This document shows positions 8,969 to 13,119 of a stretch of 64,000 nucleotides of DNA, piece after piece. Made by a program: the position numbers and the translations under genes. The DNA lies in NCBI RefSeq assembly GCF_000523515.1, contig NZ_AWRU01000008.1, positions 112,338 through 176,337 on the forward strand, written 5' to 3'. This stretch comes from Pedobacter sp. V48. Its GTDB lineage: Bacteria; Bacteroidota; Bacteroidia; Sphingobacteriales; Sphingobacteriaceae. The notes below the pieces were generated by a model that worked only from the letters and a program-made list of their open reading frames with translations, searched no databases and had not been told where the DNA came from. Every line of letters begins with the position of its first letter. Position 1 is the first letter of the stretch.

Positions 8969-10210
8969 CTAGTTAAATATCACTTCCTCTTCAGAAACCT
9001 TTAGGATTTGCTGTTCGGTGTAAGTGTACCTACCAGTATGAGCAATAAAAACATCCTTTTGCTCAAGAAGGTCGCGGTTAGCCAATAGAGTTTTCAGGCT
9101 TACATTTCCAATTACATATTTGTAATCATTACGGGAGAACCGCTCAATAATATTATCTATCTGAAGCTTTTCCAATGTGTACTCATGGGTGTATCGCAGA
9201 TAAACTTCAATGTTTACGTTATCCGTATGAACTAATCCGTTGTGCTGGTGATATTTTTTATACTCATAGCGGTAATCATATCTTAAGGCAGCTATATCTG
9301 ATAAAACAGCTGCTCCGGTAGGGTGTCCACCGGCACCTTTTCCAAAGAAAAACTGCTTATCAGCAAAGGCCGCCTGAACCGTTACGCCATTATATTCGTT
9401 TTCTACATTGAACAGGAAGTCATCAGATTTTACAAACTTTGGCAATACATACGTAATGATTTGCTTGGTACTTATTTTACGGGCAGTAGGCACAAGTTTA
9501 ATTTTAAAGTTCTTCTCCCTGGCATACTTAATGTCGTGCTCCGATAAGTTTTGAATACCTACATTAAGTATCTTATTAGGGTCAATAAATAACCCGTAAG
9601 CATGAGCAGTTGCAATAGCCAGCTTAAATTTAGGATCATAGCCTCCAACATCCAGAATGGGATTAGATTCAGCAAAACCAAGATCTTGCGCCTGCTTTAA
9701 TGCAACGCCATATTCAAGATTTTCATTAAATATTTTAGAGAGGATGTAGTTAGATGAACCGTTGAATATTCCACTTATACCGTGTAGTAATTCATTGTCG
9801 TAATATTCTTCCAGATTACGGATGATAGGTATACTGCCACAAACTGCACCTTCATATAATAGAGAAGCATTGTGTTTTTCTTGCAATTCCACCAGTTCGG
9901 CCAGATGAGTGGCAATCATTTTTTTATTGGCAGACACTACATTTTTGCCGCTAATTAATGCTCTTTTAACGATGTTGTACGCAATCTCTGCGTTATCAAT
10001 TAATTCAACTACCGTGTTGATTTCACTATTGTCTAATATTTCATCATGATTTGTGGTGAAAAGATGTGCCTCAAGGCTACGTTTTTTCTCAGGATTTTTA
10101 ATAGCTATTTTAACGATCTCAAGGTTCAGGTCCTGACCGCGAATAATATCATGCAATCCTTGTCCAACAACTCCAAAACCAAATAAACCGATCTTAAGTT
10201 TCTTACTCAT
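8969..10210 (-). CDS. hom: Homoserine dehydrogenase
   Basis: A 413-residue NAD(P)-dependent homoserine dehydrogenase, which reduces aspartate semialdehyde to homoserine. The Rossmann motif GLFGFGVVGQGL is at the N-terminus. The family signature is SANKKMIA followed by YEGAVCGSIPIIRNLEEYY and GIFNGSSNYILSKI (about residues 140-160). The C-terminal ~90 residues do not show a clear ACT domain, so feedback control may differ from classical enzymes. It is the third gene of metY-metX-hom, 7 bases after metX, and should lie under the SAM-I riboswitch ahead of metY, which feeds homoserine straight to MetX. Confidence 0.93.
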   Translation of the reverse strand: MSKKLKIGLFGFGVVGQGLHDIIRGQDLNLEIVKIAIKNPEKKRSLEAHLFTTNHDEILDNSEINTVVELIDNAEIAYNIVKRALISGKNVVSANKKMIATHLAELVELQEKHNASLLYEGAVCGSIPIIRNLEEYYDNELLHGISGIFNGSSNYILSKIFNENLEYGVALKQAQDLGFAESNPILDVGGYDPKFKLAIATAHAYGLFIDPNKILNVGIQNLSEHDIKYAREKNFKIKLVPTARKISTKQIITYVLPKFVKSDDFLFNVENEYNGVTVQAAFADKQFFFGKGAGGHPTGAAVLSDIAALRYDYRYEYKKYHQHNGLVHTDNVNIEVYLRYTHEYTLEKLQIDNIIERFSRNDYKYVIGNVSLKTLLANRDLLEQKDVFIAHTGRYTYTEQQILKVSEEEVIFN

Positions 10211-10217
10211 CTAAATA

Positions 10218-11276
10218 CTATGCTGTTTTATGTAATTTAATTATTTTCTTATTGGCACTTTCTTTTAAGAATGTGCCAATTATGTTGGTTAATATATCTG
10301 TCTCAATTAAAAAACCATCGTGGCCATAAGCAGAGTTAATACTTTGGAGTACCGCTCCTTGAATATGCTTTGCTAAGAACTCTTGTTCACAAAGCGGGAA
10401 TAGCACATCGTTTTCAATTCCTATTACCAGCGTATTTGCTTTAACTAATGCTAAGGCATCAACAATGCTTTTTCTGCTCCGTCCTACATTATGGCTGTCC
10501 ATAGCTTTACTTAGGTACCAATAACTATAGGCATTAAAGCGTTTACACAGTTTTTCGCCCTGATAATTCTGGTAAGAGGCAGCTCGGAATGAACCCGTTT
10601 TGTCATTTACACTTTCTAATTGTGTAGCTGAATAGGCCTCATAAGTGCGATAAGACAATAAAGCAATGCTTCTTGCAGCCTTTAATCCTTTTAAGCCACC
10701 ATCTGGCTGCTGTGCATAAAATGTACGATCAGTACTGATTGCTAAACGCTGACTCTCATTAAATGCAATTCCCCATGGTGAGTGTACTGCATTTGTAGCT
10801 ACAAGAATTAGATTGTCTACGCTTTTGCTATCTGTAATGGCCCATTCCAATGCTTGTTGGCCGCCTAAAGAACCTCCGATTAACACCTTAATGTGTTGAA
10901 TGCCAAGATGTGTGGCAAGCAGGCGGTGAGCAGCAACCAAATCTCTAATGGTAAATTCTGGAAAAGCAAGGTAATATGGTTGTCCTGTTACCGGATTTAT
11001 ACTTAGCGGGTTGGTTGTACCGTAATTAGAACCTAATACATTTGCACAAATGATAAAGTGTTCCTCGGGGTTAAACAGATCGTTATTGCCGAAAAGTCCT
11101 TTCCACCAGTCTAAAACATCAGCATTGGCTGTAAGTGCATGGCATACCCAGATCACATTATCTTTCTTCGCATTTAGTTTGCCATAAGTTTGATAAGCAA
11201 TTTCTAATTTGCGTAGTTTTTTCCCGTTCTCCAGTTTAAATAACTTTGTATGCGTATATGTGGCAGTAGTGCTCAT
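10218..11276 (-). CDS. metX: Homoserine O-acetyltransferase
   Basis: A 352-residue alpha/beta-hydrolase-fold acyltransferase of the MetX family, which makes O-acetylhomoserine from homoserine and acetyl-CoA. The nucleophile elbow GGSLGGQ puts Ser at about residue 136. The catalytic Asp is in IENDVLFPLCEQE and the His in YGHDGFLIE near the C-terminus. The family markers TANADVLDWWKGLFG and ANVLGSNYGTTNP are present. Acetyl rather than succinyl specificity is inferred from family type. It sits 25 bases after metY and 7 bases before hom in one operon. Confidence 0.93.
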   Translation of the reverse strand: MSTTATYTHTKLFKLENGKKLRKLEIAYQTYGKLNAKKDNVIWVCHALTANADVLDWWKGLFGNNDLFNPEEHFIICANVLGSNYGTTNPLSINPVTGQPYYLAFPEFTIRDLVAAHRLLATHLGIQHIKVLIGGSLGGQQALEWAITDSKSVDNLILVATNAVHSPWGIAFNESQRLAISTDRTFYAQQPDGGLKGLKAARSIALLSYRTYEAYSATQLESVNDKTGSFRAASYQNYQGEKLCKRFNAYSYWYLSKAMDSHNVGRSRKSIVDALALVKANTLVIGIENDVLFPLCEQEFLAKHIQGAVLQSINSAYGHDGFLIETDILTNIIGTFLKESANKKIIKLHKTA

Positions 11277-11301: not shown

Positions 11302-12633
<1,332 letters not shown>

Positions 12634-12672: not shown

Positions 12673-12744
12673 CCGGAAACGTATACGGTTGTTAAGCGTA
12701 CCCCTGCAAGGGGCCTTCCGTATGAATGTGAAATGCAAAAGGAA
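12673..12744 (-). promoter_or_regulatory. Competing hairpins in the metY leader (possible attenuator)
   Basis: Downstream of the short Cys-rich ORF, the leader RNA can pair in several exclusive ways. An outer stem AUACGG/CCGUAU encloses an inner CCCC-UUGCA-GGGG hairpin. The same CGGAA segment (rc of 12716-12720) could instead pair with UUCCG (rc of 12673-12677), and GGAAG could pair with CUUCC just after the short ORF's stop. Overlapping exclusive pairings are usual in attenuators, but no U-tract follows, so termination is not shown. The call is inference. Confidence 0.35.
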
Positions 12745-12754
12745 GATTTGTAAA

Positions 12755-12838
12755 TTATAGAATGCAACAGCACATGCAATTCGCCTGCTGAGGATAACAA
12801 TAATTTAACAGATTTGAAGTAATTCTTACAGTTTTCAT
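12755..12838 (-). CDS. Putative 27-residue Cys-rich leader peptide
   Basis: An ATG-to-TAA reading frame of 28 codons on the metY sense strand. It starts with MKTVRITSNLLNYC and ends with CMCCCIL before the stop: five Cys codons in total, four of them in a five-codon run shared with one Met codon. It begins 9 bases after the 3' strand of the riboswitch P1 helix, with the A-rich upstream sequence (TGAAACAAA) that precedes real starts in this window. Position and composition suggest a leader peptide whose translation senses Cys (and Met) supply for the metY operon, in the manner of trp or his leaders. It could be chance; no conservation data are available here. Confidence 0.5.
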   Translation of the reverse strand: MKTVRITSNLLNYCYPQQANCMCCCIL

Positions 12839-12847
12839 TTTGTTTCA

Positions 12848-12959
12848 ATTTATCTTTCCAAACGACACCATGTCTTTTGGTCAGGAATTGGCACCTTCTC
12901 CATCTTGGGAGGGTTGCCAGTGGGTCAAAGAGCCTGTCTCTCGCCACTTCTTTATAAAT
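12848..12959 (-). ncRNA. SAM-I (S-box) riboswitch aptamer
   Basis: On the minus strand the P1 helix is formed by AUUUAU (rc of 12954-12959) and AUAAAU (rc of 12848-12853). Between them lie the S-box landmarks in order: AAGUGGCGAGAGACAGGCUC, then CACUGGCAACCCUCC, then GAAGGUGCCAAUUCCUG, then GGAAAGAUAAA. SAM-I riboswitches bind S-adenosylmethionine and lower expression of methionine genes. It lies about 240 bases ahead of metY and about 50 bases after the predicted transcription start. No classical U-tract terminator follows the aptamer, so the output may act on translation of the short ORF or on a later structure. Confidence 0.88.
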
Positions 12960-13013
12960 CAAACCTTTTTATTAAGGAAGGTTGACTTGATTAGCTTTCG
13001 CTAAATGATACTG

Positions 13014-13046
13014 CAAATGTAGATTTAAGTTAATAAATATCCAAAA
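13014..13046 (-). promoter_or_regulatory. Bacteroidota-type promoter of the metY operon
   Basis: On the minus strand, TTTTG (rc of 13042-13046) is followed after exactly 20 bases by TACATTTG (rc of 13014-13021). This matches the -33 TTTG / -7 TAnnTTTG promoter of the primary sigma factor in this phylum. Transcription would begin near 13008, about 50 bases before the riboswitch. The -33 box sits inside a 21-bp inverted repeat. Confidence 0.75.
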
Positions 13047-13071
13047 TTATATTTTGGATATTTATTAACTT
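13027..13071. repeat. Perfect 21-bp inverted repeat with 3-base centre
   Basis: Arms 13027-13047 and 13051-13071 are perfect reverse complements around TAT. They are AT-rich apart from a TCC/GGA step. The repeat covers the -33 box of the metY promoter and lies between that promoter and the end of the upstream trans-sulfuration gene. It may be an operator, or a weak terminator for the upstream gene; the low GC content and the exact overlap with the -33 box favour an operator. Inference. Confidence 0.8.
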
Positions 13072-13119
13072 ATTGTATTTCAGTGTTGTAAATTGGTTTT
13101 GCAATAGGGTATCTCGATT

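Follow-up and report, generated by a model that had tools for sequence, protein, structure and literature searches.

What does a Cys-rich short reading frame do between a SAM-I riboswitch and the metY-metX-hom operon of Pedobacter sp. V48? The original prediction, made from the sequence, proposed that the frame encodes a leader peptide, so that SAM sensing by the aptamer and Cys-tRNA sensing by the ribosome would be joined in one leader. We analyzed this locus in a 64,000-nucleotide stretch of the genome (the window, whose positions are used throughout) and compared it with the corresponding leaders of related bacteria. The locus lies on the minus strand, which the prediction had left unstated, and reads 5' to 3' as promoter motif, SAM-I aptamer, 27-codon frame with its stop codon, and metY-metX-hom:

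13014-13021, minus: predicted -7 element TACATTTG (TAnnTTTG) of the leader promoter, by motif
12847-12960, minus: SAM-I riboswitch aptamer RF00162 (cmscan, 75.2 bits, E 7.9e-16)
end at 12847, minus: P1 3' strand of the SAM-I aptamer
12755-12838, minus: leader ORF of 27 aa, MKTVRITSNLLNYCYPQQANCMCCCIL, plus TAA (28 codons)
12764-12778, minus: conserved tail C-M-C-C-C (TGC ATG TGC TGT TGC)
12760-12777, minus: hairpin H1 over the Cys codons, with one mismatch in the window species by alignment reading
12715-12745, minus: hairpin H2, CTTCC (12745-12741) with GGAAG (12719-12715), its 5' part pyrimidine-rich
12696-12714, minus: hairpin H3, GCCCC-TTGCA-GGGGT, with a conserved TACGC flank and no U-tract after it
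11302-12606, minus: metY, O-acetylhomoserine sulfhydrylase (NCBIfam TIGR01326, 680.6 bits, cut-off 495.1)
10218-11276, minus: metX-like homoserine O-acetyltransferase (TIGR01392, 343 bits, under the cut-off of 500)
8969-10210, minus: hom, homoserine dehydrogenase (NF004976, 307.6 bits, cut-off 205)

The predicted layout was borne out. The RF00162 match covers the full length of the model (1-108 of 108; gathering score 44.4), and the 28-codon frame ending C-M-C-C-C-I-L occupies 12838-12755, 9 bases past P1; the last aptamer base (12847) is separated by 8 bases from the A of the ATG (12838), in the context GAAACAAAATG. The downstream operon was recognized as metY-metX-hom by NCBIfam matches, with metX below the cut-off of its model as listed. 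Among the matches listed, the closest named metY was that of P. foliorum (98% identical; the window's own record was possibly excluded). The leader peptide of 27 residues had no NCBIfam match.

We take TTG at 13044-13042 (minus strand) to be the -33 element of the predicted leader promoter. Of 96 leaders, a set that includes repeats, 78 had a TAnnTTTG motif between 60 and 190 nt ahead of the aptamer core, compared to 13 of 96 in shuffled sequence, and in 49 of these 78 the motif lay at 123-126 nt. The motif corresponds to a promoter consensus given in the available part of PMC9723704, and the promoter is predicted from this motif. Its position 5' of the aptamer in most leaders suggests that aptamer and short ORF are probably carried on one transcript. 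A perfect inverted repeat with 22-nt arms and a 3-nt spacer (13026-13072) overlaps the predicted -33 region; it is kept with few changes in the close relatives L036-L039, is absent in L040, and might serve as an operator or as a terminator for the gene upstream.

Conservation and coding character of the short frame

Within Pedobacter, leader DNA was matched in 142 of 145 genomes, and 110 of the 142, including the window's own, were taken as a genus set. Exclusion of one leader that ends at a contig edge (L109) and one that escaped the aptamer pattern (L124) left 108 leaders, all distinct. A short ATG frame of 24 to 49 aa was found in all 108, the window's own included, beginning 45-61 nt past the aptamer core in every case and 5-9 nt past the TAAATT of P1 in 104 (TAAATT was not found in the other 4). 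The start of metY was recognized downstream in 101 of the 108; in L079 a metX-like gene, named by eye, directly follows the leader.

The body of the frame drifts across Pedobacter, and its tail, the last ~8 codons, is conserved and rich in Cys and Met. Cys occupies codon -7 in 86, codon -5 in 97, codon -4 in 85 and codon -3 in 79 of the 108 leaders, and Met occupies codon -6 in 94. Cys accounts for 29.0% of the tail compared to 5.3% of the body, and Met for 17.2% compared to 0.7%. All 108 frames have at least two Cys in their last 14 codons and 101 have at least three. At the metY locus L233 the frame tail reads RMCCCIYNF; upstream of its SAM-I aptamer, this locus also has a cobalamin riboswitch (RF00174, 110 bits) in the opposite orientation.

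Frameshifts between close relatives, named in the original prediction as evidence that would count against it, were not seen when fixed anchors were used: in all 89 leaders with the H1 motif the distance from the ATG to H1 is divisible by 3, over 13 values from 57 to 123 nt (the remaining 19 of the 108, without the H1 motif as written, were left out). Three adjoining spacers are out of phase, with remainders 0/1/2 of 45/41/12, 37/28/31 and 17/56/21. In 21 equal-length pairs of 52, substitutions at codon positions 1/2/3 numbered 49/38/84, and single-change codons comprised 49 synonymous and 74 nonsynonymous cases. The other two reading frames across the same span are closed in 108 and 97 of the 108 leaders. 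Gap lengths modulo 3 (1/2/0) in pairwise alignments, 67/47/27 in the frame and 104/62/31 downstream, showed no in-frame bias; we judged this test uninformative, since the aligner places small compensating gaps, and used the fixed anchors instead. A short ATG frame with at least three Cys in its last 14 codons occurred in 55 of 9200 dinucleotide shuffles, compared to 88 of the 92 real leaders that were shuffled, 29 of which are identical to a genus-set leader. Of all short ATG frames on both strands of the same loci, 193 of 4391 satisfied this definition, a count that includes the leader frames and their nested starts. Frame conservation and codon-position bias therefore indicate the translated short ORF expected of an attenuator, and support the view that its tail is selected for Cys and Met.

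Beyond the genus set, 113 metY loci were collected (19 from the family, 80 named and 14 from the class), of which 92 were readable with an aptamer, 18 lacked an aptamer and 3 were not parsed (L183 and L186, which have both aptamer and Cys run, and L301). A second class-wide draw added 14 metY loci with an aptamer. Among the resulting 108 aptamer-bearing rows, 29 duplicate a genus-set leader and two pairs are repeats, giving 77 distinct leaders, or 76 once the mis-registered L240 (its frame ends CMCCCIQ) is omitted from the counts. At least three Cys in the last 14 codons were found in 69 of these 76. The Pedobacter H2 motif is present in 8 of the 69 and absent in 61, such that 61 of 68 SAM-I metY leaders without Pedobacter H2 carry the Cys-run frame; a small number of the 61 are named Pedobacter at NCBI (L257, L259 = L187, and L280). 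The labelled positives span nine families (f1, f2, f15, f29, f31, f40, f41, f48, f49), so that the conservation in relatives called for by the original prediction extends well past the genus. Aptamers were located by Infernal scans of 20, 12, 4 and 18 loci and at the other loci by pattern alone; among nine loci with an Infernal-found aptamer, eight have the Cys frame and L193 has none. In some loci, e.g. L285, L342 and L351, a gene intervenes between leader and metY.

Outside Pedobacter the frame is 19 to 53 aa long and typically ends in CICMCCCC in Mucilaginibacter and in CCMCICCPCC or CCCCCC elsewhere, with up to six consecutive Cys at the C-terminus (L296). In 66 of these other frames, a set chosen for at least two tail Cys and holding three repeats (L254, L259, L290), Cys accounts for 44.7% of the tail and 0.9% of the body and Met for 11.2% and 1.2%, and 64 have at least three tail Cys. 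The tail is in both groups a run of codons for amino acids of the pathway, as attenuators have. The assignment of Cys as the leader codon thus held insofar as the Cys run is conserved, also where the Pedobacter hairpins are lacking; the prediction had noted neither the Met enrichment beside Cys nor the three hairpins and the missing conserved U-tract terminator behind them. A clear Cys run was not seen at seven distinct aptamer-bearing loci (L193, L195, L276, L345, L346, L349, L352): L193 leaves too little space for a frame, L195 and L276 have two Cys each, and L345, L349 and L352 belong to one genus (g96).

The frame was also found without the aptamer. Among 22 metY loci with no SAM-I match (the 18 above and 4 of the second draw, some of them distant homologues), a frame with three or more tail Cys lies in the 470 nt upstream of 6 and is lacking in 16, so that aptamer and frame are separable. 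Three of the six are convincing by eye, L297 (MCMHMCCCMCS), L344 (CMCMCCMCM) and L353 (two Cys-rich frames), and three are weak (L299, L302, L354). No SAM-binding RNA was detected at Rfam gathering scores in L344 and L353, nor in L297 and L299, for which a looser threshold also gave none. L297 and L353 each contain two Cys/Met-rich short frames, and L344 has an apparent second frame whose Cys codon is covered by a hairpin, GTTGCTC-GAGCAAC.

Helices following the tail in Pedobacter

In Pedobacter leaders H1 over the Cys codons is followed by H2 (CTTCC/GGAAG), H3 (GYCCC/GGGRT) and then TACGC. Of the 108 leaders, 100 were put to a structure model and 95 matched. In these 95, 97.7% of all cells are paired (H1 95.4%, H2 99.6%, H3 98.9%), and sliding the partner strand lowers the pairing of H1-H3 to 24-59%. 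H2 changes from CG to GU in 3 leaders and from CG to UA in 1, and one pair of H3 is CG in 59 leaders and UA in 33. Two-sided changes in H1-H3 affect 62 cells compared to 26.5 +/- 3.7 in shuffles, and 6 pairs compared to 3.9 +/- 0.6, in an alignment fitted to the structure, which favours covariation; pair types showed no excess (12 compared to 11.2 in shuffles). A 171-nt piece of the window, running from past the aptamer to past H3, folded no more stably than shuffles (z -0.52), and its minimum free energy structure has neither H1 nor H2 as drawn, so that the helices rest on covariation. Folds of shorter pieces gave H2 and H3 in L035 and H1-H3 in five of the other relatives shown. These data support H1-H3 as RNA helices in Pedobacter.

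An Rfam search of the window found no known family at H1-H3. A model of the three hairpins (R1) matched the window at 12696-12778 and 56 of 60 Pedobacter genomes, once each. In a family-wide draw it matched 35 of 201 genomes, all Pedobacter, with one Pedobacter (G009) unmatched; the other 165 are other genera by listing, 19 of them among those listed. The hairpins therefore appear to be a Pedobacter feature, whereas the Cys tail is shared more widely. In 11 leaders, mostly Mucilaginibacter-like and selected by this very pattern, an alternative hairpin ACACGT/ACGTGT can be drawn after the stop codon; its consensus energy is weak.

H1 itself varies in strength (-5.3 kcal/mol in L035, -9.3 in L120) and is weak or lost in L076, L082, L083, L089, L090 and L104 (-0.3 to -4.2 kcal/mol), where the Cys run stays. 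Codon -3 is NGC in 96 of the 108 leaders, which suits H1. In L061, L065, L091 and L099, H1 has a cUUCGg loop, with Phe-Gly in place of Cys-Cys; in these four, H1 structure and Cys run seem to be traded off against each other.

A candidate two-input sulfur sensor

We hypothesize, and consider it quite likely on the comparative data, that the leader is a two-input sulfur sensor in which a SAM aptamer is combined with a ribosome that senses the charging of Cys tRNA, and perhaps of Met tRNA. Transcription would start just upstream of the aptamer. With SAM bound, P1 would be formed and its end, 5-9 nt before the start codon, would hamper ribosome loading; this action of P1 is suggested by the short and nearly fixed distance from P1 to the start. 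At low SAM the short ORF would be translated. If charged tRNA-Cys is short, the ribosome would stall in the tail, as the Cys/Met codons beside the stop suggest for a shortage of either amino acid, and would keep H1 open and shield the pyrimidine-rich H2 region, allowing RNA polymerase to continue into metY. With sufficient charged tRNA-Cys, the ribosome would leave at the stop codon and the transcript would be stopped, probably by Rho, in view of the lack of a conserved U-tract terminator. Four elements of this scheme are inferred from sequence comparison: ribosome stalling, the influence of SAM on loading, the sign of the response and the role of Rho. It counts against the shielding step that a ribosome of the usual footprint, halted on the Cys codons, would open H1 but may not reach H2. 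In the 95 nt after the stop, C exceeds G (2301 compared to 1542), which would weakly fit Rho.

A further point against this reading is that the genome has a cysK/M gene (348.2 bits, model cut-off 344.15), so that metY is not the sole route to Cys. The gene immediately upstream of the leader is assigned to the cystathionine gamma-synthase/lyase group, with scores under the cut-offs of its best models; with both genes present, sulfide assimilation by MetY could feed Cys via homocysteine.

The most serious alternative is classical attenuation independent of Rho, in which the stalled ribosome would open H1 and the strand thus released would pair anew with H2, H3 or the aptamer. In trp leaders helix 1:2 covers the leader codons as H1 does here, and H1-H3 covary. 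The uORFC-8-2 motif, a Cys-codon uORF ahead of cysS in Rhodobacterales, likewise holds its tandem Cys codons in the first stem; as described in the accessible part of that report, it differs in having two Cys codons, cysS as its gene, a U-run terminator and no aptamer mentioned (PMC8632094). The window's ATCTTCC could moreover pair with both the P1 3' strand and GGAAG. For 54 Pedobacter leaders (alternate ones of the 108) and 43 others, duplexes of the P1 3' strand with post-stop sequence reached p<=0.05 in 10 and 6 leaders, respectively, with a mean z of -0.36 and -0.57, a weak excess among leaders that are related to each other. Against such a mechanism, no intrinsic terminator or antiterminator was recognized, without use of a terminator program: H3 is followed by TACGC and no U-tract, and from TACG to metY a run of five T is missing in 84 of 95 leaders and scattered at differing places in the other 11. 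No conserved alternative pairing was seen, and other genera keep the Cys run without H1-H3. We therefore regard classical attenuation as unlikely. Two specific pairings form no part of our scheme. An antiterminator of the P1 3' strand (GGAAAGAT) and ATCTTCC showed the same weak excess over the 5% expected, and L068, L087 and L094 (CTTCGG/CTGAAG) by eye keep H2 and lose the pairing with P1; a pairing of TACGC with the tail's TGTA, also found by eye, is broken without compensation in lineages with TGC at codon -7.

The peptide itself might act: either the finished Cys-rich product or the nascent chain might sense metal, sulfide or redox state, or function in trans. A C-terminal run of as many as six Cys (L296) and a Cys chemistry that could read redox state would suit this, but the body drifts, the length varies over the ranges given above in Pedobacter and elsewhere, no NCBIfam family matches, and conservation falls on the codons before the stop, as in known leader peptides. 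We consider this improbable. Still less credible is selection on the hairpins alone with the frame as a by-product of a conserved RNA element: the NGC preference at codon -3 and the UUCG loops that replace Cys-Cys point that way, but the frame is kept through 13 lengths with third-position bias, and the Cys run persists where H1 is weak or lost and in leaders without H2, so that hairpin selection is refuted as a complete explanation. A chance frame without function, although a 27-codon frame in one leader is not rare, is already refuted by its presence in all Pedobacter leaders, its kept phase and the shuffle control.

The sensor reading combines elements known separately. Leaderless Cys ORFs of mycobacteria are reportedly Cys-responsive attenuators, to judge by the title of a 2020 study by Canestrari; here the ORF is preceded by an aptamer. 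Short ORFs with Cys runs by the stop, no terminator and a proposed role of Rho were predicted in 2005 for Actinobacteria, upstream of the cys operons in Mycobacterium and Propionibacterium acnes and of Bifidobacterium cbs (PMC1262725). In the portion of that paper available, the shared features are these: Cys codons near the stop of a short ORF, sulfur amino acid genes behind it, no conserved terminator, and Rho suggested. Our leaders differ in phylum, in the gene (metY), in the SAM-I aptamer that comes first, in the admixture of Met and, in the Pedobacter branch, in three covarying hairpins. Riboswitch and uORF share a leader in M. tuberculosis at Mbox/pe20, with Rho-dependent termination (PMC12810186), and at B12/metE and ppe2 (PMC11260477); as in our leaders, an aptamer and a short translated ORF occur together, whereas the ligands are others and the uORFs are not described as amino-acid sensors in the sections of these reports at hand. 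A SAM-I riboswitch of Xanthomonas also binds uncharged initiator tRNA, and therefore likewise joins SAM and a tRNA signal in one met-operon leader, but there the tRNA binds the RNA directly and no leader peptide is named in the available text (PMC7270179).

In Bacteroidota, amino acid operons of Flavobacterium psychrophilum have been proposed to be under leader-peptide attenuation (PMC9723704, in part available), and long 5' UTRs of Bacteroides thetaiotaomicron contain short ORFs reminiscent of leader peptides (PMC7366714, likewise). The open-licence literature, among the matches listed and as far as these sources were available, holds Cys-run leaders and riboswitch-plus-uORF leaders each on their own and, for Bacteroidota, no leader in which a SAM riboswitch is joined to a Cys-run ORF, so that the novelty claimed for the SAM-I pairing stands uncontradicted there. 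Control by an S-box together with a Cys T-box is found at ubiG in Clostridium. Tandem T-box and SAM riboswitches of Bacillota (PMC12452182), like ubiG, in principle take SAM and tRNA charging as inputs; in the accessible part of that source, the tRNA is read by the T-box RNA and not by a ribosome on a short ORF.

On the sequence comparisons, the interpretation offered in the original prediction was likely right in kind. Whether the sensor reading extends to a widespread gate of Bacteroidia, in which SAM would control ribosome loading, the ribosome would read tRNA-Cys (and tRNA-Met) charging, and the aptamer would have been added in front of an older Cys/Met leader, is a more tentative matter; we find this possible but would not yet call it probable. 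If true, the two-input sensor would be a natural logic element that combines a metabolite aptamer with ribosomal amino-acid sensing in one short leader, conserved over several families of a phylum with little-studied RNA regulation. It would bear on the balance of Cys and Met synthesis in Bacteroidota and provide a test bed for riboswitches that act by way of a leader ORF where no U-tract terminator is conserved. The metY leaders would also gain a short coding frame.

Other SAM-I leaders

The Pedobacter sp. V48 genome has four SAM-I aptamers. Two of them, L002 before a gene resembling cysteine desulfurase and L004 before one resembling metH, both genes named by eye from their N-termini, have no Cys-run frame in the leader, and in the third (L001), before a TonB-type receptor gene, the frame is a different one with two Cys and the ending RMHCCSI. 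A search of the genome for TGYTGYTGYN{0,6}TRA gave 341 matches compared to 93 for the reversed pattern, too many for specificity.

A SAM-I riboswitch directly before a desulfurase-like gene, named by eye, was also seen in L013, L015, L017, L021-L023 and L027, as in L002, with the N-terminus MRIYLDNAATT following the riboswitch. At 23 Pedobacter loci (L005-L012, L014, L016, L018-L020, L024-L026, L028-L034) a SAM-I leader precedes a TonB-type receptor gene, again named by eye. In these leaders a U-tract terminator is followed by a further conserved short frame, with FRMRxPC or RMCxxC as a frequent ending, and in many of them, by eye, the stop codon of this frame lies in the arm of a second hairpin that is followed by T's (CCTGTTAAAA...TTTTAACAGGCTTTTTT). 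The TonB-receptor leader looks like a second, different leader-peptide attenuator.
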